Source of the DNA: Arenicellales bacterium
GTDB taxonomy: Bacteria > Pseudomonadota > Gammaproteobacteria > BMS3Bbin11
DNA: 36,837 nt
NCBI GenBank assembly: GCA_029287915.1
Contig: JARFQE010000119.1
Span: forward strand, 1 to 36,837
Direction: 5' to 3'
Part shown: positions 3,922-36,805 of the stretch, piece by piece
How the letters are laid out: each line of letters begins with the position of its first letter
Numbering within the stretch: position 1 is the first letter of the stretch
Notes under the pieces: generated by a model
Told to the model about the DNA's origin: nothing
The model's database searches: none
Seen by the model: only the letters and a program-made list of their open reading frames with translations
Program-made: the position numbers and the translations under genes

Positions 3922-4992
3922 ATGACAATTTCTGTATTCTTAGGACTTTCGGGTGGTGTGGATTCTGCAGTCGCAGCAGTGTTACTGAAACAGCGAGGCT
4001 ACGATGTCACTGCTGTTTTCATGAAAAACTGGGAAGAAGATGATGATGAAGACTACTGTGCAGCAGCTGAAGACCTGGCCATTGCAGAAGAAGTAGCCAG
4101 AATACTCGATATACCATTACTGTCGGTTAATTTTGCATCGGAATACTGGGACAGGGTATTTGAACATTTTCTACGCGAATACCGTGCTGGTCGCACACCA
4201 AATCCTGACGTATTGTGTAACCGTGAAATCAAGTTCAAAGCCTTTCTGGATTACGCGCTTGCACAGGGTGCAGACAAAATTGCGACCGGCCACTATGCTG
4301 ATGTGCACCAGTGTCATGGCAGCGTGTATCTTGGCAAGGCTGCGGACCAGGATAAGGACCAGACATATTTCCTCTATGCTATCGGTCAGTATGCTCTAGC
4401 ACATAGCCTGTTCCCGCTGGCCACACTCACCAAACCTGAGGTAAGGGAACTTGCCCGAAAACACAATCTACCGAACTATAATAGAAAGGATAGCACGGGT
4501 ATTTGCTTTATCGGCGAGCGACGTTTTCGTGAATTCCTGAGCCGCTACCTTCCTGCACAACCGGGTGAAATCAAGCAATTAGATGGGGCAGTCGTCGGAC
4601 AACATCAGGGCTTGATGTATTACACTATCGGCCAGCGCCAGGGGCTGGGTATCGGCGGTCCTGGAGAACCCTGGTTTGTTGTCGGCAAGGATCTGGATAA
4701 CAATGTTCTGCTTGTTGTCAAAGGCAAGGATCATCCTGGATTATATCATTCAAGCCTTATTGCAGATGAACTGCACTGGATTTCTACAACCGCGCCCAGC
4801 TTACCACTAAGCTGTACTGCAAGAATCAGGCACCGACAGGAAGAGCAGAAGTGCCATTTGTCAGCGTTTGATGATGGTAAACTGAAGGTCGATTTTGAAC
4901 AGCCTCAGCGGGCTATTGCGGCGGGTCAGTCTGTTGTGTTTTATCAAAAAGATTTGTGTTTAGGTGGTGGTGTGATCTACAGGGCCGTCTGA
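3922..4992 (+). CDS. mnmA: tRNA-specific 2-thiouridylase MnmA
   Basis: MnmA installs the 2-thio group on the wobble uridine of tRNA-Lys, -Glu and -Gln, using ATP and sulfur relayed by the Tus/IscS system. The 356-residue product is close to the family's usual length. The N-terminal PP-loop SGGVDSA is at residues 10-16, and KNWEEDDDEDYC follows. The two catalytic cysteines are present: Cys99 in PNPDVLCNREIKF and Cys195 in DSTGICFIGER. KDQTYFLY, GHYADV and the tRNA-binding motif GQRQGLGIGG are also conserved. In E. coli and many gammaproteobacteria mnmA is followed by hflD and purB. Here a 220-base non-coding gap separates mnmA from purB, and hflD lies further away on the other strand. Confidence 0.97.
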   Translation: MTISVFLGLSGGVDSAVAAVLLKQRGYDVTAVFMKNWEEDDDEDYCAAAEDLAIAEEVARILDIPLLSVNFASEYWDRVFEHFLREYRAGRTPNPDVLCNREIKFKAFLDYALAQGADKIATGHYADVHQCHGSVYLGKAADQDKDQTYFLYAIGQYALAHSLFPLATLTKPEVRELARKHNLPNYNRKDSTGICFIGERRFREFLSRYLPAQPGEIKQLDGAVVGQHQGLMYYTIGQRQGLGIGGPGEPWFVVGKDLDNNVLLVVKGKDHPGLYHSSLIADELHWISTTAPSLPLSCTARIRHRQEEQKCHLSAFDDGKLKVDFEQPQRAIAAGQSVVFYQKDLCLGGGVIYRAV

Positions 4993-6592
<1,600 letters not shown>

Positions 6593-7708: not shown

Positions 7709-8350
7709 TCATATTTGACTTAACATCTCCTGAGCCGTTAATGCAAATAGTTTGCGTTTGAGCAAAAACTGTAGTCGGCCGCCCCCCAGCTGCTCCCACA
7801 AGACGGCGGCACGTACACCTGCTAGTAACAGGCTGCGGATACGATTTACGATATCGTCCTGTTGCAAATAATCCGAATTACCCTTGACTATGATACGAGG
7901 TTGCAGAGTACTTATCGTTTCACTATAAATATCAGAAAATCTGGCTAGCAAAGTCGAATTGATTGCTGATTCCTGTTGCATTGATTCAAAATATTCTTTC
8001 TGACGCTTAACACCCTTGATCAATTGTGACAACTGCTCAAGCAGCTCCGTTTTGTGTAAAAGTTTATGGGTCAAATGCATCAGACTGAACACATAAGCCA
8101 GCACCGCCATACTCGCTTCACTTTTATTACTGCCGATATAATCAGCTAAAGTCTCCAGTCCAAGAGAGATACCTTGTGTACCAGAAAAAACAGAGGGTAC
8201 ATCATCAGCATCGATCATAAATAGACTCTCTATACTGGCGAGCGTGGCATCTTCATCTGCATAACCCGTTGTTGCCAGTTGATGTACCAGTGATGCTGAC
8301 TGAAATATGCCAGCCAGTGCGAGTGTTCGTTCGTTATATGATGCAGTCAT
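7709..8350 (-). CDS. hflD: HflD homologue (high-frequency-lysogenisation protein)
   Basis: The 213-residue helical protein begins TASYNERTLALAGIFQSASLVHQLATTG. It contains SLFMIDADDVPSVF and GLETLADYI, which are characteristic of HflD. In E. coli HflD is a peripheral inner-membrane protein that binds phage lambda CII and promotes its degradation; its ordinary cellular role is unclear. The start codon shares one base with the stop of the upstream hydrolase gene (TAATG at 8350), indicating translational coupling. hflD usually lies between mnmA and purB, so this position at the end of a different, opposite-strand operon is atypical. Confidence 0.9.
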   Translation of the reverse strand: MTASYNERTLALAGIFQSASLVHQLATTGYADEDATLASIESLFMIDADDVPSVFSGTQGISLGLETLADYIGSNKSEASMAVLAYVFSLMHLTHKLLHKTELLEQLSQLIKGVKRQKEYFESMQQESAINSTLLARFSDIYSETISTLQPRIIVKGNSDYLQQDDIVNRIRSLLLAGVRAAVLWEQLGGGRLQFLLKRKLFALTAQEMLSQI

Positions 8351-9432
8351 TAGCTTGTTTGTACCGAAGTATCATCTGCTTCAGGTTCATGCTGCATAGA
8401 TTTCCAGTCGATACGCTCCATAAGATAGCACAGGCAGTCAATCCGAATAACATCCTCATTATCCGTCAGCATGGCCGGCATGACAGGAACCTTTAATCTA
8501 TATTTTTCTCCATCACGTATAAAAAATTTAGCGGATTGATCCTTGCCATGTTCATCCCAGGCCTCGAGGAAAGCATCTGAGCCTTCTTTTATACGGCAGA
8601 AAACTGTGCCCGCTGGGACTTCAGAAAAATTCATCATTGCCAGGTCTTCATCAAAAATTAAATCTGACTCGATGACATTACAGACCTCAGTATTTTTTTC
8701 ATTGAATGAGAAACTGTAACGGCTCGGTATTTTGATGATGGAAACCGTGTGGTAGAGATCCATATCATGTTCCGGTAAAGGGTGCTCAGGGAAGTGTGAC
8801 AGGTGTAAGCAGCCGTTTATAAATTCTACTGCGTGGTCAACACCACGTTTATCACCGGGCAGGCCACATTCTATCGTTGCTGCTGGACATATATCTGACA
8901 TTGCCCATGTGCTGGTAGTGTCGGGTTTAATGGTATAGACAACCGTACGTCCAAACAGTGTGGCCAAGCGATAAAAGATATTTTCATGTCGACAGATCAG
9001 CGCAAAATGTGGATTCTTTCCTGTATTATTATGAATGTCGACAGCAGCGAACACGTTGCGCTCACGCATAGATTCCATTATTTGATGCGTCATTTGATGT
9101 TCGGGTGTGTCACCATAACCCCAGATACGATTGTAGTCGGGCTGACCCGGCAAGGCCCGCAGCTTTTGCTTTGCCGCTACAACATTACCGATAAAAATAG
9201 ACAGTGAACGAGGTAGCTGTCGATCTACGTATTGGCGCAATATCTGCTGAATAACAAGCAGGCCGGTAAACTCATTGCCATGCAACATCACGCTGACAAA
9301 CAATGGATCCTTGCGATTACCTTCGAGATGAATCAAAGCAGACCCCCCAAGCAGATCAAGCAGCTCCGTTGATTCAACATCCAGCAAACCATCCGGAACT
9401 TTATGGAAAACCTTGAAACCTAGATCAACCAT
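8350..9432 (-). CDS. Succinylglutamate desuccinylase/aspartoacylase-like zinc hydrolase (M14-related)
   Basis: The 360-residue protein carries the AstE/AspA zinc-carboxypeptidase fold. Zinc ligands are His51 and Glu54 in MLHGNEFTG and His134 in VDIHNNTG. RALPGQPDYNR around 92-101 gives the substrate-binding Arg, and Glu188 in TIECGLPGD matches the catalytic Glu. These enzymes hydrolyse an N-acyl amide bond on an amino acid. No ast (arginine succinyltransferase) genes accompany it, so I do not assign AstE. It overlaps the upstream GCS2-type ligase gene by 13 bases and is coupled by one base to hflD. A ligase-hydrolase pair acting on the same amide-linked metabolite is a natural but unproven reading. 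Confidence 0.87.
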   Translation of the reverse strand: MVDLGFKVFHKVPDGLLDVESTELLDLLGGSALIHLEGNRKDPLFVSVMLHGNEFTGLLVIQQILRQYVDRQLPRSLSIFIGNVVAAKQKLRALPGQPDYNRIWGYGDTPEHQMTHQIMESMRERNVFAAVDIHNNTGKNPHFALICRHENIFYRLATLFGRTVVYTIKPDTTSTWAMSDICPAATIECGLPGDKRGVDHAVEFINGCLHLSHFPEHPLPEHDMDLYHTVSIIKIPSRYSFSFNEKNTEVCNVIESDLIFDEDLAMMNFSEVPAGTVFCRIKEGSDAFLEAWDEHGKDQSAKFFIRDGEKYRLKVPVMPAMLTDNEDVIRIDCLCYLMERIDWKSMQHEPEADDTSVQTS

Positions 9433-10850
9433 TGATGCACCGGTAACGAAGACTGTTGATTTCTTATGTAGGCCTCGGTGAGCTCACGCATACTGCAATT
9501 ATGCTGATACAGGTAGTTGCGTTGCCACACTGCTCCATTCTGCCGTGACTCTATACGGTCGTAGATGATACCCAGAAAGTAATCAATATCACTCTGCTCT
9601 ATACCGAGGTATGCCAGGCCCTTGCGTGCTGCTGGGACAAGCTTCTCCAGCAGCAACTCCCTGACATCAACCCGACCTTCACCCGGCCAGTGTATACTGC
9701 CGCGCAGTCCATACTTGGAAATGGTGTAAAAATCCTCTTTCACCTGATTAAAATCAATCCTGGATTCTGGTGCTGTATGCTCATTCGCCAGTGTTGTAAT
9801 GAGACCGAAATAAAAGGAAGCATTTGCCAGCATATCGACGATAGTTGGACCGGAAGGCACAACCCTTTGTTCAATTCGAAGATGATAGCCATTTTCATCT
9901 ATGCCTATCAGGGGACGATTCCAGCGCCAGATCGTGCCGTTATGCAGGCGCAGGTGCCAAAGCTTTTCTTTACCAGCATCTGACAAGGTAGGCAGCAACA
10001 CAGGATAAATCTCGATATTTTCTTCATACAACTCAAGTACAGAATGTTTACACCAATCATGGCCAAACGTGACGCGTGAACGACCGGTATGACCGATTAC
10101 GCCATTGTGATCTGTATTAACTGCCTGCTCGAATAGAGGGATGCGAGATTCATCCCATAAATCCTTACCAAACAGAAAGGGAGAATTAGCCGCTGCGGCC
10201 AGTAATGGTGCCGACGCGAGAATAGATGCGTTATAGAATCGAACCGCCTGTCCAGGACTAACCTGTATATGGATCTGAAAGGAGGTGGCTGCAGCTTCCA
10301 GCATAACATCATAATGACTGCTTTGCAGATGCTCCCTGCCCATGATATCCAGTTCAATGGGCTTGCCATGACGTAATTTTAACACCTGTTCATTCAGCGC
10401 ACGGTAACGCTCAACCTCTGACATATTTGCCAGAGTAAGCTGCGCATCATCAAGACCAGGCAAGGAGCCCATCATTACAATTCTAGCGTTCATGGTGGCC
10501 GCTGTATCCATACATAAGCGCCATAAATCGGACATCTCCGACTGCATCATAGAAAGGGCCTTACCATGTAATTCATGTGGATGGAAATTCAGTTCGACAT
10601 TGAATCGGGAGAGTTCATGCACAACGAGCGGATTATCCAGTTGCTTGATAAACTCCTGATTTATTGGGGCTGGCTTTGCCTGATTATCGACCAGCCAGGC
10701 CTCAAGCTCATAGCCACCAACTTCATGGCCCGAAATAAAGACATTCTTATCAAACAGGTCTCGCAGCAGATCCATTTCCTCCAGTAGACGGCAATGGAAC
10801 TTCTCAAAATCAGCAGCACTAAACTCAGCCTTTTCGATCTCCTGTCCCAT
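9420..10850 (-). CDS. GCS2-type glutamate-cysteine ligase-like carboxylate-amine ligase
   Basis: The 476-residue product resembles the glutamate-cysteine ligase 2 (GCS2/YbdK) superfamily. GGYELEAWLVDNQ near residues 45-58 has the acidic metal-binding pattern of the family. FNVELNFHPHEL around 104-115 and FQIHIQVSPGQAVRFYNAS around 213-231 are further matching segments. Members join glutamate to an amine in an ATP-dependent way; some make gamma-glutamylcysteine, others unknown products. The sequence alone does not tell which amine is used. The gene starts 9 bases after the S9 peptidase stop and overlaps the next gene by 13 bases, so all are likely one transcript. It could be the organism's glutathione-pathway GshA, but no gshB is nearby. 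Confidence 0.82.
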   Translation of the reverse strand: MGQEIEKAEFSAADFEKFHCRLLEEMDLLRDLFDKNVFISGHEVGGYELEAWLVDNQAKPAPINQEFIKQLDNPLVVHELSRFNVELNFHPHELHGKALSMMQSEMSDLWRLCMDTAATMNARIVMMGSLPGLDDAQLTLANMSEVERYRALNEQVLKLRHGKPIELDIMGREHLQSSHYDVMLEAAATSFQIHIQVSPGQAVRFYNASILASAPLLAAAANSPFLFGKDLWDESRIPLFEQAVNTDHNGVIGHTGRSRVTFGHDWCKHSVLELYEENIEIYPVLLPTLSDAGKEKLWHLRLHNGTIWRWNRPLIGIDENGYHLRIEQRVVPSGPTIVDMLANASFYFGLITTLANEHTAPESRIDFNQVKEDFYTISKYGLRGSIHWPGEGRVDVRELLLEKLVPAARKGLAYLGIEQSDIDYFLGIIYDRIESRQNGAVWQRNYLYQHNCSMRELTEAYIRNQQSSLPVHQWLI

Positions 10851-10859
10851 TTTATCTTT

Positions 10860-12836
10860 TCAATCCCTGCTACCACTAATTACGTTACTAAAGAATTCGG
10901 CTTCTTTCTCCAGTGCATCAATACGTGTCTCCATCATTCTAAAGCCATGACCCTCATCCGGGTACTCGACATACTGATGAAAGATCCCTCTCGCGTCCAG
11001 ATTTTCAACCAGCTCTCGGGATAACTGTGGTGGTACAACTTTATCCTCAAGACCCTGAAAAATAATCATCGGGCTTTTCAGCTGCGCCAGCTCGTGTAAA
11101 GGTGAGCGGTCATAATAAGGACTGCCAGGTTTATTAGATGCATGTCCAGAATAATGCTCACCGAGTAATCCATCAAGATAATGGGCTTCGAATTTATGAG
11201 TAAATTCCATTAAGGTTACCAGGTTACCAATACCATAATAACAGGCTCCGGCACAGAACATATCTGGGAAAGAGGTCAGGGCCCTTAGCACCACATAGCC
11301 ACCAGCACTTCCCCCTCGAATACAGACATGTTGTGGATGTGCCAGTCCTTGCCTGATAACATAATTTACTGCATCAGCCACATCCATACTATCCAGCAGG
11401 CCCCACTTATTCTGCAGCGACTGGCGATAGGACCGGCAATAGCCCGTACTGCCGCGGTGATTAACATCGAGTACAGCAAAGCCACGCCCGGTCCAGTATT
11501 GTCGTTGATAACTCAGCGCACTATCACTGCGTGATGTAGGCCCTCCATGCACCATCACCAGTAGCGGAGGCAATTCTCCTGACGGAGCCCGATAATGGTG
11601 ATTTTTCGCTGCATAATACCAGGCATAAGAACGCCTTCCATCACGGGTGGCATAGCTCAGGTGTTGAGGAATACTGATATCTAAATCATCAAGTATGGTT
11701 TCTGATTCTTTCCATTGCCTGATATCCGTTTTTATTCCCGCGCAGCCATGCACTGCTACCGTGCGGGAAAAACTTGCGGCGCAATATACGACCGAATGCT
11801 GATCTGCCTGCGACAGCTGGGACAGACTTGTTGATGATTCATTCTGAAGCACATTGACAGTTGAAGATGGGATATCAATTTCAACAAGCTGATCGCTGCC
11901 TTCAATGGTACGAATGGCGATGATGCGCTCATCATCTATTACCGCATATCGTTGCTGACCAAATATCCAGTGTGCTTCACCATATTCTCCCCTGTCATTG
12001 GTGATGCGATCAATCGAATGGCCATCCCACGAAAAAAGATCCCAGCAATCAGCCTCGATGCCATTACTGGCATCATGACCATCGAGGGCGAAAAAAAGTC
12101 GACCATCTGGCGAATATTGCAACTGGCAGACGGCACAGGCACTGCCCCCTGCTATAGTCAATATTGATGATGGATCAATAGATAATCTACCCTGGTGATC
12201 CTTTAACTGCCCCATCTTTAACAAGCTGCCATCCCATGGCATTAACGGGTGATTCCATTCTATCCAGGCGAGTTGCGAGCCATCAGGTGAAATAACCGGA
12301 TTGGCATAAAAATCCGCTCCACTTATCAAAGGAAAAGCTTGCCTGTCTGGACCATCAACTAATGACAGAGCGCACAAGCGGTTTACATTTTCGCCATTTT
12401 CAACCGGATGTTCCTGCACGTAGAGCAGGTAATTGCCATCTGGTGTAAGCTGGAAATCGATGGCCATATCCTGATCATCTTGTGCAGATATAGCCTCGGG
12501 CATTGAACGAGGATTCAGCCTCTGTTTGTACACCCTTCTGTCTGCATCATTGCTGAACCAGACGTGGTTATCGGCCAGTAAAAAAGCCTTGCCACCATAC
12601 TCATGCACACGACTGCGAAGATTAAAACCATCAGGAGTCAGGGTTTTCGTACTACCATCAGCCTGTAGTCTGAGCAGGACGCAGCGCCCGCCTTCAGCTG
12701 CACGCTGCTGGAGATAATAAAGCTGTCCGTCATACAGGGTGGGGTATTGTGGTACAGGCCGCTGCGAGTAAATTTGTTGCGGGCTTAGTGTTGGCTGCCA
12801 CTGGAGATATGAAATAATTTCTACACTGGCAACCAT
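10860..12836 (-). CDS. S9-family prolyl oligopeptidase-like peptidase
   Basis: The 658-residue product has an N-terminal beta-propeller (about 40-380) with TolB/WD-like strands such as FQLTPDGNYLLYVQE, NPVISPDGSQLAWIEW and LQYSPDGRLFFALDG. An alpha/beta-hydrolase domain follows (about 400-655). The nucleophile Ser is near residue 510 in IRGGSAGGYVVLRAL, the acid near 595 in GLEDKVVPP and the His near 629 in YPDEGHGFRM. VMVHGGPTSRSDSAL supplies the oxyanion region. No signal peptide is seen, so it should act on short peptides in the cytoplasm. Only 3 bases separate it from the upstream aminotransferase gene and 9 from the downstream ligase, which places it in the same transcript. Confidence 0.92.
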   Translation of the reverse strand: MVASVEIISYLQWQPTLSPQQIYSQRPVPQYPTLYDGQLYYLQQRAAEGGRCVLLRLQADGSTKTLTPDGFNLRSRVHEYGGKAFLLADNHVWFSNDADRRVYKQRLNPRSMPEAISAQDDQDMAIDFQLTPDGNYLLYVQEHPVENGENVNRLCALSLVDGPDRQAFPLISGADFYANPVISPDGSQLAWIEWNHPLMPWDGSLLKMGQLKDHQGRLSIDPSSILTIAGGSACAVCQLQYSPDGRLFFALDGHDASNGIEADCWDLFSWDGHSIDRITNDRGEYGEAHWIFGQQRYAVIDDERIIAIRTIEGSDQLVEIDIPSSTVNVLQNESSTSLSQLSQADQHSVVYCAASFSRTVAVHGCAGIKTDIRQWKESETILDDLDISIPQHLSYATRDGRRSYAWYYAAKNHHYRAPSGELPPLLVMVHGGPTSRSDSALSYQRQYWTGRGFAVLDVNHRGSTGYCRSYRQSLQNKWGLLDSMDVADAVNYVIRQGLAHPQHVCIRGGSAGGYVVLRALTSFPDMFCAGACYYGIGNLVTLMEFTHKFEAHYLDGLLGEHYSGHASNKPGSPYYDRSPLHELAQLKSPMIIFQGLEDKVVPPQLSRELVENLDARGIFHQYVEYPDEGHGFRMMETRIDALEKEAEFFSNVISGSRD

Positions 12837-12839
12837 TTA

Positions 12840-13952
12840 TCAGGAGATTGCCTGCTCAATGACCTGACATACCCGCTCAACCTGCTGCCCGGACATATCA
12901 GGGTATACGGGCAGGGAAATCACTTCATCGCCCAGCGAGACAGAAACAGGAAAATCAGCTGCCGTATATGCCAGTCGTTCATAGACTTTCTGTAGTGCCA
13001 ATGGTTCAGGATAACAGGTTGAATTACCAATAGCATTGGCCATCAGTGCCTCCCGTATTGCATCTCTTTTCGTACTGCGGATAGTATACAGATTAAAGGC
13101 ATGGGAGCCCTGCTGTGGACGGGTGGGACAGGTAATGCCCATATTTCCCAGCCTTTCATCATATTGACTGGCGACACGCTGACGAGCAGCGATATTCTTG
13201 TCCAGTGTCTTAAGTTTTATTCGCAGCAGCGCTGCCTGCACCTCATCAAGACGACTATTCATGCCAATTTCATCATGCTGAAAGGACGCCGCTGCACCAT
13301 GATTTCGCAGCTTTCGTACAGCTTCAGCAATTTCATCGCTATTCGTCGTCACTAAGCCGCCATCACCATAACACCCTAACACCTTGGTAGGATAAAAACT
13401 GAAGCATCCGGTAATCCCCATACTGCCGACACGCTGTCTATCATGCTGCGCACCAAAAGCCTGAGCCGCATCCTCAATAACAGCAAGATTGTGTTTATCT
13501 GCAATGGTCCTGATGGCTGTCATATCGGCTGGATTTCCAAACAGGTGCACAGGAATTATTGCGCGAGTTTTTTCGCTGACTGCCCGTTCAATCAATGCCG
13601 GATTTATATTAAAACTATTGGCCTCGATATCGACAAAAACAGGTGTTGCTCCCACCATGTCTATTACTTCTGAAGTAGAAAAGAAGGTGTAGGGCGTCGT
13701 AATAACTTCATCACCCGGCCCAATCCTCAGTGCACGGAGGGACAGATACAGAGCATCCGTTCCATTTGCCACGCCTATAGCATGGCGAGTACCGACAAAG
13801 TCCGCTGCCTCTTTTTCAAAGGCATGGACGTTAGGCCCAAGTATCCAGCTTCCTCGCGCACCGGATTCACTGATCATGGCGAACCACTCGTCTTTGAGAG
13901 AGTTGAATTCTCTGCTCAAATCCAGATAGGGAACGCCTTCAGGTTTTGTCAT
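12840..13952 (-). CDS. DegT/DnrJ/EryC1-family sugar aminotransferase (GnnB/WbpE-like)
   Basis: I choose the ATG at 13952 because AAGGA lies about 8 bases upstream; an in-frame TTG at 13979 has no such site. The product is 370 residues. PLP-dependent sugar aminotransferase features are clear: GTDALYLSLRAL, Asp in VIEDAAQAFGA (about 161), and the Schiff-base Lys in SFYPTKVLGCYGDGG (about 190). Members transfer an amino group from glutamate to a keto group on a nucleotide sugar. The gene directly upstream encodes a Gfo/Idh/MocA dehydrogenase with the IGHLERFN motif. This dehydrogenase plus aminotransferase pair matches GnnA/GnnB, which convert UDP-GlcNAc to its 3-amino form for amide-linked lipid A in Acidithiobacillus and Leptospira. 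A WbpE-type role in O-antigen synthesis is the alternative. Confidence 0.88.
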   Translation of the reverse strand: MTKPEGVPYLDLSREFNSLKDEWFAMISESGARGSWILGPNVHAFEKEAADFVGTRHAIGVANGTDALYLSLRALRIGPGDEVITTPYTFFSTSEVIDMVGATPVFVDIEANSFNINPALIERAVSEKTRAIIPVHLFGNPADMTAIRTIADKHNLAVIEDAAQAFGAQHDRQRVGSMGITGCFSFYPTKVLGCYGDGGLVTTNSDEIAEAVRKLRNHGAAASFQHDEIGMNSRLDEVQAALLRIKLKTLDKNIAARQRVASQYDERLGNMGITCPTRPQQGSHAFNLYTIRSTKRDAIREALMANAIGNSTCYPEPLALQKVYERLAYTAADFPVSVSLGDEVISLPVYPDMSGQQVERVCQVIEQAIS

Positions 13953-14019
13953 ATTGTTTGTCCTTGCCTTGAGAGTCAAAACTCATTGTGAGTGTTATGT
14001 AAAAATGGATGCAAACAAT

Positions 14020-14970
14020 CTAGTCTGCATTGCTCGCGTCAATGATATCTGTCACCAGCATTGCAACGCGTAAAGCCTCCATGCCATCTTCGCCTGTTAC
14101 CAGCGGCCGTCCACCTCGGCGTACGACATCGATAAAATGGGCAAGTTCAGCGTCCAGTGGCTGAGTCGGAGAAATGCTATGTGTTTCATAGACAATCTCA
14201 GGAAAGTTCTGTCCCTCAGGGGTTTTTCCAGGATACGCCACTTCAAGTTGCTGATCGACGAAATTGATCGCCCGGTAGCTGTTGCGTCCAAACACCCTGA
14301 TACGACGGAACTTCTTGTTCGATACCCGGCTTGCTGTCACATTGGCTACCGCACCATTGGCAAATTCCAGCCTGGCATTGGCGATATCAACATGGTCGGT
14401 CAGCACCGGTGTACCGGTCGCCGAAATTGATGTCAGTTTGTCACCCACCAGTGACAGAATTATATCAATATCATGGATCATCAGATCGGTAACAACATCC
14501 ACATCGGTTGCTCGCTCAACAAATGGCCCAAGCCGGTGCGCTTCGATAAAACGTGGTTCATTTACTTGATCTGCTAACGCCATGATGCCGGCATTAAAGC
14601 GCTCAAGATGCCCGATTTGTAGTGTAGCCCCATGCTTTCGAGCTGTTTCGACTATCAGTTTTGCATCATCCAGCGTTGATGCCACGGGTTTCTCCAGCAG
14701 CATATGGATGCCTTTCTCGAGGTAAGGTATGGCCACCTGCCGGTGCAGCGAAGTGGGAACGACGACACTGACAACATCAACCTCATCAAGCAGATCCATT
14801 GGATCATACAGGGCTCGGGTGTCATATTCACTGGCCACCCTGTCGGCTGTCTGCCGATCAGTATCGGCGACCCCAACCAGATCAACACCTTCCATGTCAT
14901 TGTAGATTCTGGCATGAAAGCGGCCAAGATATCCTACGCCTATGACCCCTGCGCGTATTACTTCTTTCAT
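14020..14970 (-). CDS. Gfo/Idh/MocA oxidoreductase, probable UDP-GlcNAc 3-dehydrogenase (GnnA-like)
   Basis: The 316-residue product begins with an NAD-binding Rossmann motif, AGVIGVGYLGRFHARIY (residues 7-23). The family's EKP motif is at 93-95 (LLEKPVAST). IGHLERFNAGI at about 119-129 and DLMIHDIDIILSL around 172-184 supply the catalytic-domain His residues. The combination GVGYLGRFHA plus GHLERFN is what I associate with proteins annotated as UDP-N-acetylglucosamine 3-dehydrogenase, the first step of UDP-GlcNAc3N synthesis. The aminotransferase gene begins about 67 bases downstream on the same strand, which supports that pathway. It is the first gene of the leftward run; its promoter should lie in the 117-base divergent region before the SDR gene. 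Confidence 0.85.
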   Translation of the reverse strand: MKEVIRAGVIGVGYLGRFHARIYNDMEGVDLVGVADTDRQTADRVASEYDTRALYDPMDLLDEVDVVSVVVPTSLHRQVAIPYLEKGIHMLLEKPVASTLDDAKLIVETARKHGATLQIGHLERFNAGIMALADQVNEPRFIEAHRLGPFVERATDVDVVTDLMIHDIDIILSLVGDKLTSISATGTPVLTDHVDIANARLEFANGAVANVTASRVSNKKFRRIRVFGRNSYRAINFVDQQLEVAYPGKTPEGQNFPEIVYETHSISPTQPLDAELAHFIDVVRRGGRPLVTGEDGMEALRVAMLVTDIIDASNAD

Positions 14971-17954: not shown

Positions 17955-18980
17955 ATGTCACCAGTACACCTTCCTGCAGAATGGGAAAAACAAACAGGGG
18001 TCCTGATCAGCTGGCCTGCGAAATCAACAGACTGGTGCAACAAGCTTGATGAAGTAGAGGCGACATACCTGGAGCTAACCAGACAAATTGCCAAGTACAG
18101 CCTGGTCTATGTCTGCTGCAGTGACCCGGAAACTATGCTCCATGTTCGGCAACTCTGTAATGAAAACAACATAACGCCTGGTAAACTGAACATCCTGAGC
18201 ATTCCTTATGATGATACCTGGGTGCGGGACTACGGTCCGATAAGCGTGCGCAGAGTCAATGAAATAGTGTGGCTGGATTTTAAATTCAATGCCTGGGGTG
18301 GGAGATATCCATACCAGCAGGACGCCAGGCTTACACGCCTGTTATACAGAGAGCTGTTCATCGATAACAGGGTGCTGATTGATAATACAGATTTTGTCCT
18401 TGAAGGGGGCAGCATTGACTGTGATGGCATTGGTACCATATTAACAACCAGCCGGTGTTTGCTATCAGCAGGGCGTAACCCCGGTTTAACAAAAAGGCAG
18501 ATTGAAGACCGCTTGATAAGCACGCTAGGTGTCCAGCGTGTGCTGTGGCTGGAGCATGGACAGCTTGCTGGCGATGATACCGATGCCCATGTTGATACCC
18601 TGGCACGTTTTTGTTCAACTGATACAATTACTTATGTTCAATGCAGCAGTCCTGTCGACCCCCATTATGAATCTCTGTCTGAGATGGAAAAACAGTTAGA
18701 GTCTTTTGTTCAGATGAATGGCAACCCCTACCGCTTAATTCCATTGCCATTACCAGATGCCTGTTTCAACAAAGAAGGTCAGCGACTGCCAGCGACCTAT
18801 GCCAATTTTCTGATAATCAATGGCGCTGTCCTGGTGCCGGTATACGAGCTTAACACCGACGCACTGGCATTGGCGCAGCTGCACAGGTGCTTTCCTAAAC
18901 ACACTATCATTCCCATTCAGTGTCGTGCATTATTAGAACAATTTGGCAGTCTGCACTGTATAACGATGCAAATCCTTTGA
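17955..18980 (+). CDS. aguA: Agmatine deiminase AguA (variant active-site motif)
   Basis: AguA converts agmatine to N-carbamoylputrescine and ammonia. The 341-residue product starts LPAEWEKQTGVLISWP, typical of the family. DDTWVRDYGP, NAWGGRYP, LEGGSIDCDG and GDDTDAHVDTLARF provide the substrate-binding acids and the catalytic His. The catalytic Cys is at about 335 in FGSLHCITMQ. The usual glycine-rich lead-in to this Cys is GGGNIHCITQQ; here it reads QFGSLHCITMQ, and the protein stops a few residues later. AguB follows 78 bases downstream, which supports the assignment. Activity is likely, but the altered loop deserves testing. Confidence 0.9.
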   Translation: MSPVHLPAEWEKQTGVLISWPAKSTDWCNKLDEVEATYLELTRQIAKYSLVYVCCSDPETMLHVRQLCNENNITPGKLNILSIPYDDTWVRDYGPISVRRVNEIVWLDFKFNAWGGRYPYQQDARLTRLLYRELFIDNRVLIDNTDFVLEGGSIDCDGIGTILTTSRCLLSAGRNPGLTKRQIEDRLISTLGVQRVLWLEHGQLAGDDTDAHVDTLARFCSTDTITYVQCSSPVDPHYESLSEMEKQLESFVQMNGNPYRLIPLPLPDACFNKEGQRLPATYANFLIINGAVLVPVYELNTDALALAQLHRCFPKHTIIPIQCRALLEQFGSLHCITMQIL

Positions 18981-19058
18981 AATAGCAGATTCCGGGAAAT
19001 TATCATCGGCACTGTTATAATCTCATTTGGCAAAGATCAAAGAGAAACGTTGGCAATA

Positions 19059-20021
19059 ATGACCCGTACAAATTTCAAAGCCGGGCTTATCCAGATGTCT
19101 TTTTCGGATGACCGTAATGAGAACTGGAAAAAACTCACGCAGCTACTCGAACAGGCAGCCGGCGATGGTACAGAACTGGTTGTACTGCCTGAGCTTCACA
19201 ATGGCTGTTATTTCTGCCAGCACGAAGACAGTGAAGAATTTGATCGAGCTGAATCCATACCTGGTCCCACCAGTGAGTTTCTGTCAGGCCTTGCGAGACA
19301 GCTCGAGCTGGTCATCATCGGCTCGGTGTTCGAGCGCAGGGCAGCAGGCCTTTATCATAATACGTCTATTGTGCTCGATAGTGATGGCGCACTGGCAGGT
19401 TACTATCGCAAAATGCACATTCCGGATGACCCCGGCTACTACGAGAAGTATTACTTCTCGCCCGGTGACAAGGGATATAGCCCTGTTGAAACCAGACTTG
19501 GCAAAATTGGTGTACTGATCTGCTGGGACCAGTGGTTCCCAGAGGCCGCTCGCCTGATGTCACTGGCTGGTGCTGAAGTGCTGGTTTATCCCACTGCTAT
19601 TGGCTGGGATACAACGGATAATGAAGCAGAGCAACAGCGCCAGCTTTCAAGCTGGGTAACAATCCAGCGCAGTCACGCCATTAGCAATGGTATTCCATTA
19701 TTGGCGGCTAACCGGTATGGTTTTGAGCCCAGCCCAGCAAAAAATGGCAAAGGCATAAATTTCTGGGGAGCCAGTTTTATTTGTGGGCCCCAGGGTGAAA
19801 TACTGTCACAGGCAGGTATCGCTGAAGACAGCCTGCTACAAGCCAATATTGACTTGAAGCATAGTGAAAAAGTAAGACAGGCCTGGCCTTTTCTGCGAGA
19901 CCGGCGCATTGACACATATGCCGGGCTGACTCGTCGTTTCCTTGATGAGCCGGCAGAGGATCTGGCAATGTATGACATGAGTGATGAACCAAACATTAGC
20001 AACGGAGAAAAAAATGACTGA
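19059..20021 (+). CDS. aguB: N-carbamoylputrescine amidase AguB
   Basis: AguB hydrolyses N-carbamoylputrescine to putrescine, carbon dioxide and ammonia. I use the ATG at 19059 rather than the in-frame TTG at 19050, because the AGAGAAA ribosome binding site is too close to the TTG. The 320-residue product has the nitrilase-superfamily triad: Glu45 in LPELHNG, Lys118 in YYRKMHIPDDPGYYEKYY and Cys155 in VLICWDQWFPEAAR. The DDPGYYEKYYFSPGD and ICWDQWFPEAARL stretches match the plant and bacterial N-carbamoylputrescine amidases. With aguA upstream, this gives a complete two-step agmatine-to-putrescine route. The end overlaps the HIT-family gene by 8 bases. Confidence 0.95.
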   Translation: MTRTNFKAGLIQMSFSDDRNENWKKLTQLLEQAAGDGTELVVLPELHNGCYFCQHEDSEEFDRAESIPGPTSEFLSGLARQLELVIIGSVFERRAAGLYHNTSIVLDSDGALAGYYRKMHIPDDPGYYEKYYFSPGDKGYSPVETRLGKIGVLICWDQWFPEAARLMSLAGAEVLVYPTAIGWDTTDNEAEQQRQLSSWVTIQRSHAISNGIPLLAANRYGFEPSPAKNGKGINFWGASFICGPQGEILSQAGIAEDSLLQANIDLKHSEKVRQAWPFLRDRRIDTYAGLTRRFLDEPAEDLAMYDMSDEPNISNGEKND

Positions 20022-36351: not shown

Positions 36352-36805
36352 TCATTTCCCTGGCGGCTTTAGCCTGATGCCACGCCTGGAATTTGGATTT
36401 ATCTTTTTCTTAATCGATTTCCTCGTAATTTTCTTCTGAGCTTTTTTAGCTGCCTTTTTAGTTTCCTTTTTAGCTTTCTTTTTAGCGGATTTCTTTGCCT
36501 TTTTAGCCGACTTCTTCTTTTTCGCCTCTTCCGCCTTACGTGCCTCTTCGGCCTTGCGCGCCTCTTCCGCCTTACGTGCCTCTTCGGCCTTGCGCGCCTC
36601 TTCGTCCCTGCGCGCCTCTTCTTCCCTGCGCGCCTCTTCTTCCCTGCGCGCCTCTTCTTCCCTGCGCGCCTCTTCTTCCCTACGCGCCTCTTCTTCCCTA
36701 CGCGCCTCTTCTTCCCTACGCGCCTCTTCTTCCCTACGCGCATCTTCGGCCTTCCGCGCCTCTTCGACCTTGCGCGCCTCTTCCGCCTTGCGCGACTCTT
36801 AGGCC
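36352..36805 (-). CDS. Coiled-coil EEARK-repeat protein, C-terminal part (cut by the right edge)
   Basis: The frame ends at the TGA at 36352-36354 and runs right to the contig edge. It carries about 15 six-residue repeats of the form EEARRE or AEEARK (about 36523-36798), then a Lys/Ala-rich stretch (EEAKKKKSAKKAKKSAKKK) and a basic tail ending RLKPPGK. This predicts a long charged helix, as in TolA-like or other envelope coiled-coil linkers. An in-frame TAA at 36799-36801 and a Ser at 36793-36795 differ from the repeat by one base each and look like read errors next to adapter sequence. I therefore treat the true gene as continuing beyond the edge. Its family cannot be stated. Confidence 0.72.
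36601..36744. repeat. Tandem 18-base repeats, eight near-identical copies
   Basis: Eight contiguous 18-base units with consensus TTCTTCCCTGCGCGCCTC fill this interval. The first has TTCGTC, the later four have CCTACGCG and the last ends ATC. They encode the EEARR repeat on the minus strand. More diverged units flank both sides (36532-36600 and 36745-36805). Near-identity suggests recent copy-number change, and it may also explain why the assembly stops here. Confidence 0.9.

Follow-up and report, generated by a model that had tools for sequence, protein, structure and literature searches.

A GCS2-fold ligase and an AstE-like zinc hydrolase form a conserved gene pair in Gammaproteobacteria

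We describe here a pair of genes in a 36,837-nucleotide stretch of DNA from an Arenicellales bacterium (contig JARFQE010000119.1, assembly GCA_029287915.1), which in its whole length we call the window. Four genes, all on the minus strand, follow one another at positions 7709 to 12836—in order of transcription an S9 peptidase, a GCS2-fold ligase, an AstE-like hydrolase and hflD. A first-pass annotation had read them as one coupled system, in which the first three genes would serve a dedicated cycle of making and breaking an amide-linked amino-acid compound. Our comparison across genomes shows that the real unit of the locus is the ligase-hydrolase pair, with the following features:

10850-9420, minus strand: GCS2-fold carboxylate-amine ligase, 476 amino acids, the core of the finding (PF04107, 27.3 bits against a cut-off of 21)
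10701..10715, minus strand: motif stretch of the ligase (region of G46, E48 and E50, GhExE), invariant in 87 aligned members
9432-8350, minus strand: AstE/aspartoacylase-fold zinc amide hydrolase, 360 amino acids, near-obligate partner of the ligase (PF24827, 31.7 bits against a cut-off of 25)
9271..9282, minus strand: HGNE zinc motif of the hydrolase (H51, E54), the presumed catalytic set together with N101-R102, H134 and E188

Co-occurrence was counted in a sample of 274 genomes of the window's class, with the close hydrolase subfamily called at E 1e-20; 13 more genomes had only matches of E 5e-15 to 8e-11. The ligase is found in 103 of the 274 genomes and the hydrolase in 102: both are present in 100, the ligase only in 3, the hydrolase only in 2, and neither in 169, which gives a Fisher value of 1.4e-68 that overstates independence, the genomes being related. 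In 92 of the 100 genomes having both, the hydrolase lies behind the ligase in the same orientation and no more than 500 bases away, and the gap is 60 bases or less in 81 of these 92; the other eight comprise a contig break (G137), three genomes with 1.7-2.5 kb between the genes, and four with the genes on other contigs or distant. The survey of genome neighbourhoods proposed by the first-pass annotation thus finds the pair conserved, and its idea of a dedicated cycle survives in part—ligase and hydrolase are a dedicated couple (100 genomes against 3 and 2), but the S9 oligopeptidase is no general part of it.

The same association is seen outside this sample. Among named loci, for which we took the best 80 of at least 595 found, the hydrolase lies directly downstream of the ligase in 69 (fused to it in 2), is absent from 6, and is cut by contig ends in 5; of the six loci without it, one keeps a remnant at that place (L029) and another has only 440 bases of room (L070). 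Fusions arose twice on the tree, once in L025 and once in L014/L082. Record titles of the named loci include Gammaproteobacteria, Thiobacillus, Nitrosomonas, Kordiimonas, Methylocystis and Zetaproteobacteria, and further Nitrospinaceae, Chlorobiales, Halobacteriovorax and the cyanobacterium Cyanaurora; in a phylum-level sample, heavy in few genera, the ligase occurs in 13 of 299 genomes. Because the two genes are present, lost and sometimes fused together across several groups, it is very probable that their products share a single metabolite pool; they may act on one and the same bond.

The ligase belongs to the GCS-fold superfamily, as its signature and active-site residues and its predicted fold indicate, and the assignment is remote by sequence. 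PF04107 is reached by 71 of the 87 members and PF03074, the family of eukaryotic-type glutamate-cysteine ligase (GCL), by 4; searches of PDB sequences with ligase profiles gave no match at E <= 1, nor at E <= 10. Structure prediction and structure comparison confirm it: the model, built with 86 relatives in the alignment, is confident (predicted local distance difference test score, pLDDT, 94.4; predicted template modelling score, pTM, 0.94) and matches the YbdK-type ligases 1r8g and 1tt4 (Z 37.4-38.0, root-mean-square deviation, rmsd, 2.3-2.4, 343-344 residues aligned; for 1tt4 Z 38.0, rmsd 2.3 and 344), the plant GCL 2gwc (Z 32.7, rmsd 2.6, 377 aligned) and the yeast GCL 3ig5 (Z 29.0, rmsd 2.8, 464 aligned). 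For these comparisons, made with VIA-align and Foldseek, the best 50 matches each were considered, so that absence from them is uninformative. Invariant across the 87 aligned members are G46, E48, E50, E79, E86, H194, R236, W310, E327 and R329; by hhalign, E48/E50, E79, E86, H194, E327 and R329 correspond to E17/E19, E53, E60, H138, E237 and R239 of the YbdK family. The GhExE-type ligase signature is described in PMC2588565.

These likenesses have limits that set the ligase apart from both kinds of relative. GhExE and the other active-site motifs are common to it and YbdK, but it scores 24.4 bits against the YbdK family TIGR02050, far from the family cut-off of 176.4, and carries about 20-30 extra N-terminal residues with a conserved MGQEI, about 100 extra overall; moreover, YbdK occurs in 14 of the 274 class genomes, only one of which (G188) also has the window-type ligase. 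It differs from eukaryotic and plant-type GCL, despite the long alignments, in having a hydrolase partner and a host with its own GshA, as well as in the lack of a PDB sequence match. We take it as a separate subfamily of carboxylate-amine ligases with a conserved MGQEI start; by analogy with its relatives, it would form an amide in an ATP-dependent manner with the γ-carboxylate of glutamate. A distant ligase relative (L016, 1063-2970) bears two C-terminal CBS stretches, suggesting nucleotide control in that branch.

By sequence the hydrolase, too, is a remote member of its superfamily, and here again the predicted structure and its comparison with known ones bear the assignment out. Each of the 37 aligned members matches PF24827 at E <= 0.001, and the zinc motif HxxE...H, the NR pair and the catalytic glutamate of the AstE/aspartoacylase superfamily are all present; the invariant residues are H51, G52, E54, R92, D99, N101, R102, D132, H134, N135 and E188. 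For H51, E54, N101-R102, H134 and E188 we assume the catalytic roles of their counterparts in ASPA and AstE. The model (pLDDT 91.4, pTM 0.89) matches AstE 1yw4 (Z 21.2, rmsd 4.0, 273 aligned), aspartoacylase ASPA 2o4h (Z 19.4, rmsd 3.1, 254 aligned), EutE/DoeB 6twm (Z 19.4, rmsd 3.6, 272 aligned) and CphZ 8eip (Z 17.5, rmsd 4.1, 269 aligned), and the protein was also aligned to AstE chains with HMMER. The two-domain fold and the zinc-catalytic motifs are shared with all of these; in contrast to them, the hydrolase has a GCS-fold ligase as its partner and forms a subfamily of its own, marked by a C-terminal DCLCY signature. It reaches no NCBIfam family at E <= 0.001, the AstE equivalog included, and so does not count by score as the AstE of the arginine succinylation route.

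The most recurrent surroundings of the pair are those of MurU and AmgK, enzymes of N-acetylmuramic acid (MurNAc) salvage that are its frequent operon-like neighbours. Neighbours were counted around 102 ligase genes in 102 class genomes, leaving out the window's own genome, a second copy in G127 and small fragments; clustering by open reading frames (ORFs) lost 20 of 100 ligase genes, and the counts given here come from tblastn, which found the ligase in 102 of 102. Only some cluster representatives were named by Pfam or NCBIfam, and lptD, surA, lipA, lipB and the amgK of locus L238 were identified by eye. Of the 102 class loci, 55 have MurU upstream in the same orientation as the ligase (within 600 bases in 49), and 49 have AmgK; among the named loci MurU is upstream in 32 of 80, always within 200 bases, and the MurU-ligase gap is 30 bases or less in 19 of 33 measured. 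The identity of MurU is secure in all four proteins tested, which score 308.8 to 331 bits against an NCBIfam equivalog cut-off of 250; AmgK is the best NCBIfam match of both proteins tested, yet under the cut-offs. None of the other neighbours, whether clustered from the 80 named loci or from the class loci, is as recurrent—LptD/SurA, LipA/LipB, an RND efflux gene and small groups such as a PHP-domain gene lie farther out or in few loci.

The linkage is neither uniform nor confined to one setting. Rows with linked MurU are scattered over the ligase tree, with at least 22 changes of state on a FastTree reconstruction in which 33 of 113 inner branches are weakly supported, and the fetched flanks of 28 of the 55 linked loci contain neither lptD/surA nor lipAB (one query each, some flanks being short); the amgK-murU-pair cluster therefore seems to persist in varied surroundings. 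In the two hydrolase-only genomes, G099 and G219, the hydrolase stands directly after MurU (L231, L232), and each genome carries a YbdK ligase elsewhere; since the two genomes are of a single genus and YbdK is uncommon, its standing in for the ligase remains only a hint. The window's genome has its murU on another contig, unlinked to the pair: in L238, read by eye, amgK-murU lies between lptD/surA and lipA-lipB, with 326 bases (6029-6354) and no pair between murU and the convergent lipA. In several relatives ligase and hydrolase stand together at that place; in the window's genome neither family has a second member. Most simply, the pair would once have stood at an older murU site and have moved away from it in the window's lineage. 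Nor is the murU link general: nine named loci of other groups show no MurU or AmgK in the sequence available.

On balance we lean, with moderate confidence, towards the pair being a two-enzyme amide module, in which a γ-glutamyl-type ATP ligase is countered by a zinc amidase. The substrate is probably a small molecule, and in Gammaproteobacteria the module perhaps has an ancestral tie to MurNAc salvage. The ligase would phosphorylate a carboxylate, by analogy the γ-carboxylate of glutamate or of a glutamyl compound, and then join the activated carboxylate to an amine at the expense of ATP; its AstE/aspartoacylase-fold partner would use zinc to hydrolyse the amide of the same compound or a close relative. 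We infer these reaction directions, like the glutamyl donor, co-transcription and the cell-wall role; the motifs, predicted folds, co-occurrence, adjacency, fusions and MurU linkage are observed. Given that the two genes abut or overlap, seem to be transcribed together and in some cases are fused, one control probably governs both formation and cleavage. The leading candidate substrate would be a glutamyl peptide arising in cell-wall (MurNAc) salvage, because the gammaproteobacterial module often stands directly behind amgK-murU, perhaps ancestrally. A known arrangement that would work alike is Gss, the glutathionylspermidine synthetase/amidase, which holds an ATP amide synthetase and an opposing amidase in one chain; its ATP-grasp and CHAP folds, however, are unrelated to the GCS-type and AstE-type folds predicted here.

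Several observations weigh against this reading of the pair. The ligase occurs without the hydrolase in 6 of the 80 named loci and in 3 of the 103 class genomes that have it, and the hydrolase of G170, counted as present, is a remnant with two stop codons. MurU is found in 235 of the 274 class genomes, far more than the pair, so its presence or absence says little on the link; 47 of the 102 class loci have no linked MurU, only 6 of these with less than 1.5 kb of upstream sequence. Nine loci labelled neither gamma- nor betaproteobacterial (L035, L037, L050, L056, L057, L070, L081, L086 and L094) have no MurU or AmgK in 2.6 to 10 kb of upstream sequence or in the available downstream sequence; the linkage may therefore be old gene order and not function. 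Mpl, too, is present in 238 of the 274 genomes, including the window's (233 of them above the family cut-off), and leaves no simple recycling gap for the pair to fill. Finally, the carboxylate or the amine used by the ligase could be a different one, and the hydrolase might target some other compound.

The two enzymes might instead work in sequence: the hydrolase would act on an N-acyl precursor to set free a glutamyl or amino compound, which the ligase would link to a different amine—consecutive steps with no cycle. Co-occurrence, adjacency and fusion fit this equally well, and the hydrolase model matches CphZ and EutE/DoeB, AstE relatives that work in catabolic routes. We nevertheless consider such remodelling unlikely, as no third gene recurs near the pair as often as AmgK and MurU; gene order itself cannot discriminate.

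To a similar, low degree of probability the amide module might belong to peptidoglycan recycling proper, a narrower form of the cell-wall reading that overlaps with it: the hydrolase would be a MpaA-like γ-D-glutamyl amidase and the ligase would rebuild the γ-D-glutamyl peptide. In its favour, roughly half of the class loci have linked MurU/AmgK, also away from lptD/surA and lipAB, and the hydrolase resembles two murein peptidases, Csd4 (Z 16.6, rmsd 2.5, 180 aligned) and MpaA (Foldseek E 5.7e-06). That likeness is, however, limited to the catalytic domain, and most MurU-bearing genomes have no pair, just as the nine loci of other groups have the ligase without a MurU neighbour. The prevalence of Mpl also speaks against it; the pair as a replacement of Mpl finds no support and is disfavoured. 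A bolder version makes the pair an unrecognised branch of cell-wall salvage, encoded with amgK-murU, that would turn over a muropeptide-derived peptide or a MurNAc-linked compound in a reversible glutamyl-amide cycle and control the storage or reuse of recycled stem-peptide fragments; this seems to us doubtful as well. To our knowledge, the described AmgK-MurU pathway includes no such ligase or hydrolase; the term "glutamate-cysteine ligase" does not occur among the listed matches in the AmgK-MurU literature.

Modification of a protein or peptide and its reversal, with the ligase adding a glutamyl group or tag and the hydrolase removing it in the manner of PafA/Dop or RimK-type systems, is clearly improbable. 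PafA and Dop do have the fold of the ligase (Z 15.9-19.8, rmsd 3.7-3.9, 287-308 aligned) and belong to its superfamily, according to structure comparison and to PMC2588565, and the M14-type deglutamylase CCP5 has the catalytic fold of the hydrolase (Z 14.9, rmsd 3.2, 205 aligned). In PafA/Dop, however, ligase and hydrolase are homologous and a Pup gene is present, whereas the window's hydrolase has another fold and no tag gene was seen among ORFs of at least 80 amino acids. With 81 of 92 gaps at 60 bases or less there is no space for one between ligase and hydrolase, and the clusters of such ORFs in the class loci show no recurrent small one directly beside the pair. The hydrolase model also superposes on small-molecule acylases along both of its domains (Z 19-21, 254-285 aligned), but its match to Csd4 and to most carboxypeptidases is confined to the catalytic domain (Z 15-17, about 180-200 aligned).

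A glutathione side branch, with the ligase as a redundant γ-glutamylcysteine synthetase and the hydrolase trimming γ-glutamyl peptides, is the least probable: γ-Glu-Cys is the best-known product of the GCL fold branch, plant and yeast GCL are the closest folds after YbdK among the matches listed, and 4 of the 87 ligase members match PF03074, but the window's genome has a separate GshA with a full score (TIGR02049, 580.6 bits) directly beside gshB, and no glutathione gene was recognised among the annotated recurrent neighbours of the pair. The ligase itself has no GshA equivalog match in NCBIfam, and the possibility that it is the genome's sole GshA, on which the first-pass reading would have foundered, is excluded by that second gene. 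That annotation had also noted the lack of classic glutathione partner genes; this is true at the locus, but gshA and gshB lie elsewhere in the genome, at L237 4663-7942, where gshA (PF08886/TIGR02049 type) and gshB are joined by an ApbE-like gene (114.7 bits, under the cut-off of 498), with 4-base overlaps from each gene to the next. GshB is present in 237 of 264 class genomes and the pair in 100 of 274, so glutathione synthesis needs no pair, and plain glutathione synthesis is disfavoured as its role.

In the window, the pair sits among four further genes:

12836-10860, minus strand: S9 (prolyl-oligopeptidase) family peptidase, 658 amino acids, a lineage-specific neighbour (PF00326, 138.6 bits)
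8350-7709, minus strand: hflD, a lineage-specific neighbour (PF04356/DUF489, 207 bits; NF001246, 215.3 bits against a cut-off of 181)
13979-12840, minus strand: DegT/DnrJ/EryC1-type aminotransferase, probable operon member (PF01041, 399.8 bits)
14970-14020, minus strand: GFO/IDH/MocA oxidoreductase, probable first gene of the operon (PF01408, 98.3 bits)

The spacing reported by the first-pass annotation is exact by ORF coordinates—a gap of 9 bases between the S9 gene and the ligase (10851..10859), an overlap of 13 bases between ligase and hydrolase (9420..9432), and a TAATG in which one base is common to the hydrolase stop and the hflD start—and its families for S9, GCS2, AstE-like and HflD proteins are borne out by the Pfam matches, HflD also by NF001246. 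Only 3 bases separate the stop of the DegT aminotransferase from the S9 start codon, which places the probable head of the operon upstream of the range first described. To judge from this spacing, the DegT and S9 genes, the pair and hflD probably share one operon. The oxidoreductase has as its best NCBIfam match UDP-N-acetylglucosamine (UDP-GlcNAc) 3-dehydrogenase (NF040723, 248 bits, under the cut-off of 450); together with the aminotransferase (12840-14970) it resembles GnnA/GnnB-like pairs of UDP-GlcNAc 3-dehydrogenase and aminotransferase in lipid A or surface sugar synthesis.

These neighbours are largely peculiar to the window's lineage. The S9 peptidase, tried as an integral part of the system, is upstream in 4 of the 102 class loci, in one clade with the window, and in 2 of the 80 named loci; the members that bear it group with the window in one 7-row clade of the ligase tree (support 96). 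HflD, though attached by the TAATG overlap, does not hold as a functional partner, being downstream in 6 of the 102 class loci, in the same clade, and in 1 of the 80 named loci, while a DegT and/or GFO gene was found in 5 of the 102. In E. coli, hflD is located between mnmA and purB; in the window mnmA (3922-4992) and purB (5213-6592) adjoin without it, and hflD is in an opposite-strand operon about 1.1 kb beyond purB. Elsewhere in the window, two adjoining genes at 17955-20021 look by eye like an agmatine deiminase and an N-carbamoylputrescine amidase (putrescine synthesis), and a 114-amino-acid ORF at 36399-36743 with strongly basic KKRR-type repeats is possibly a histone-like protein or a spurious frame.

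Both superfamilies are already known; what is apparently undescribed is the two-enzyme module made up of new subfamilies of these familiar enzymes. Among the top literature matches, which do not exclude a prior mention, we found no description of the two subfamilies, their pairing, their fusions or the amgK-murU linkage. Both subfamilies are easily misnamed—the one as glutamate-cysteine ligase, the other as succinylglutamate desuccinylase—and naming the metabolite pool on which they act would give function to two large subfamilies that are now recognised by distant homology only. The pair may also add a peptidoglycan recycling step in many Gammaproteobacteria.

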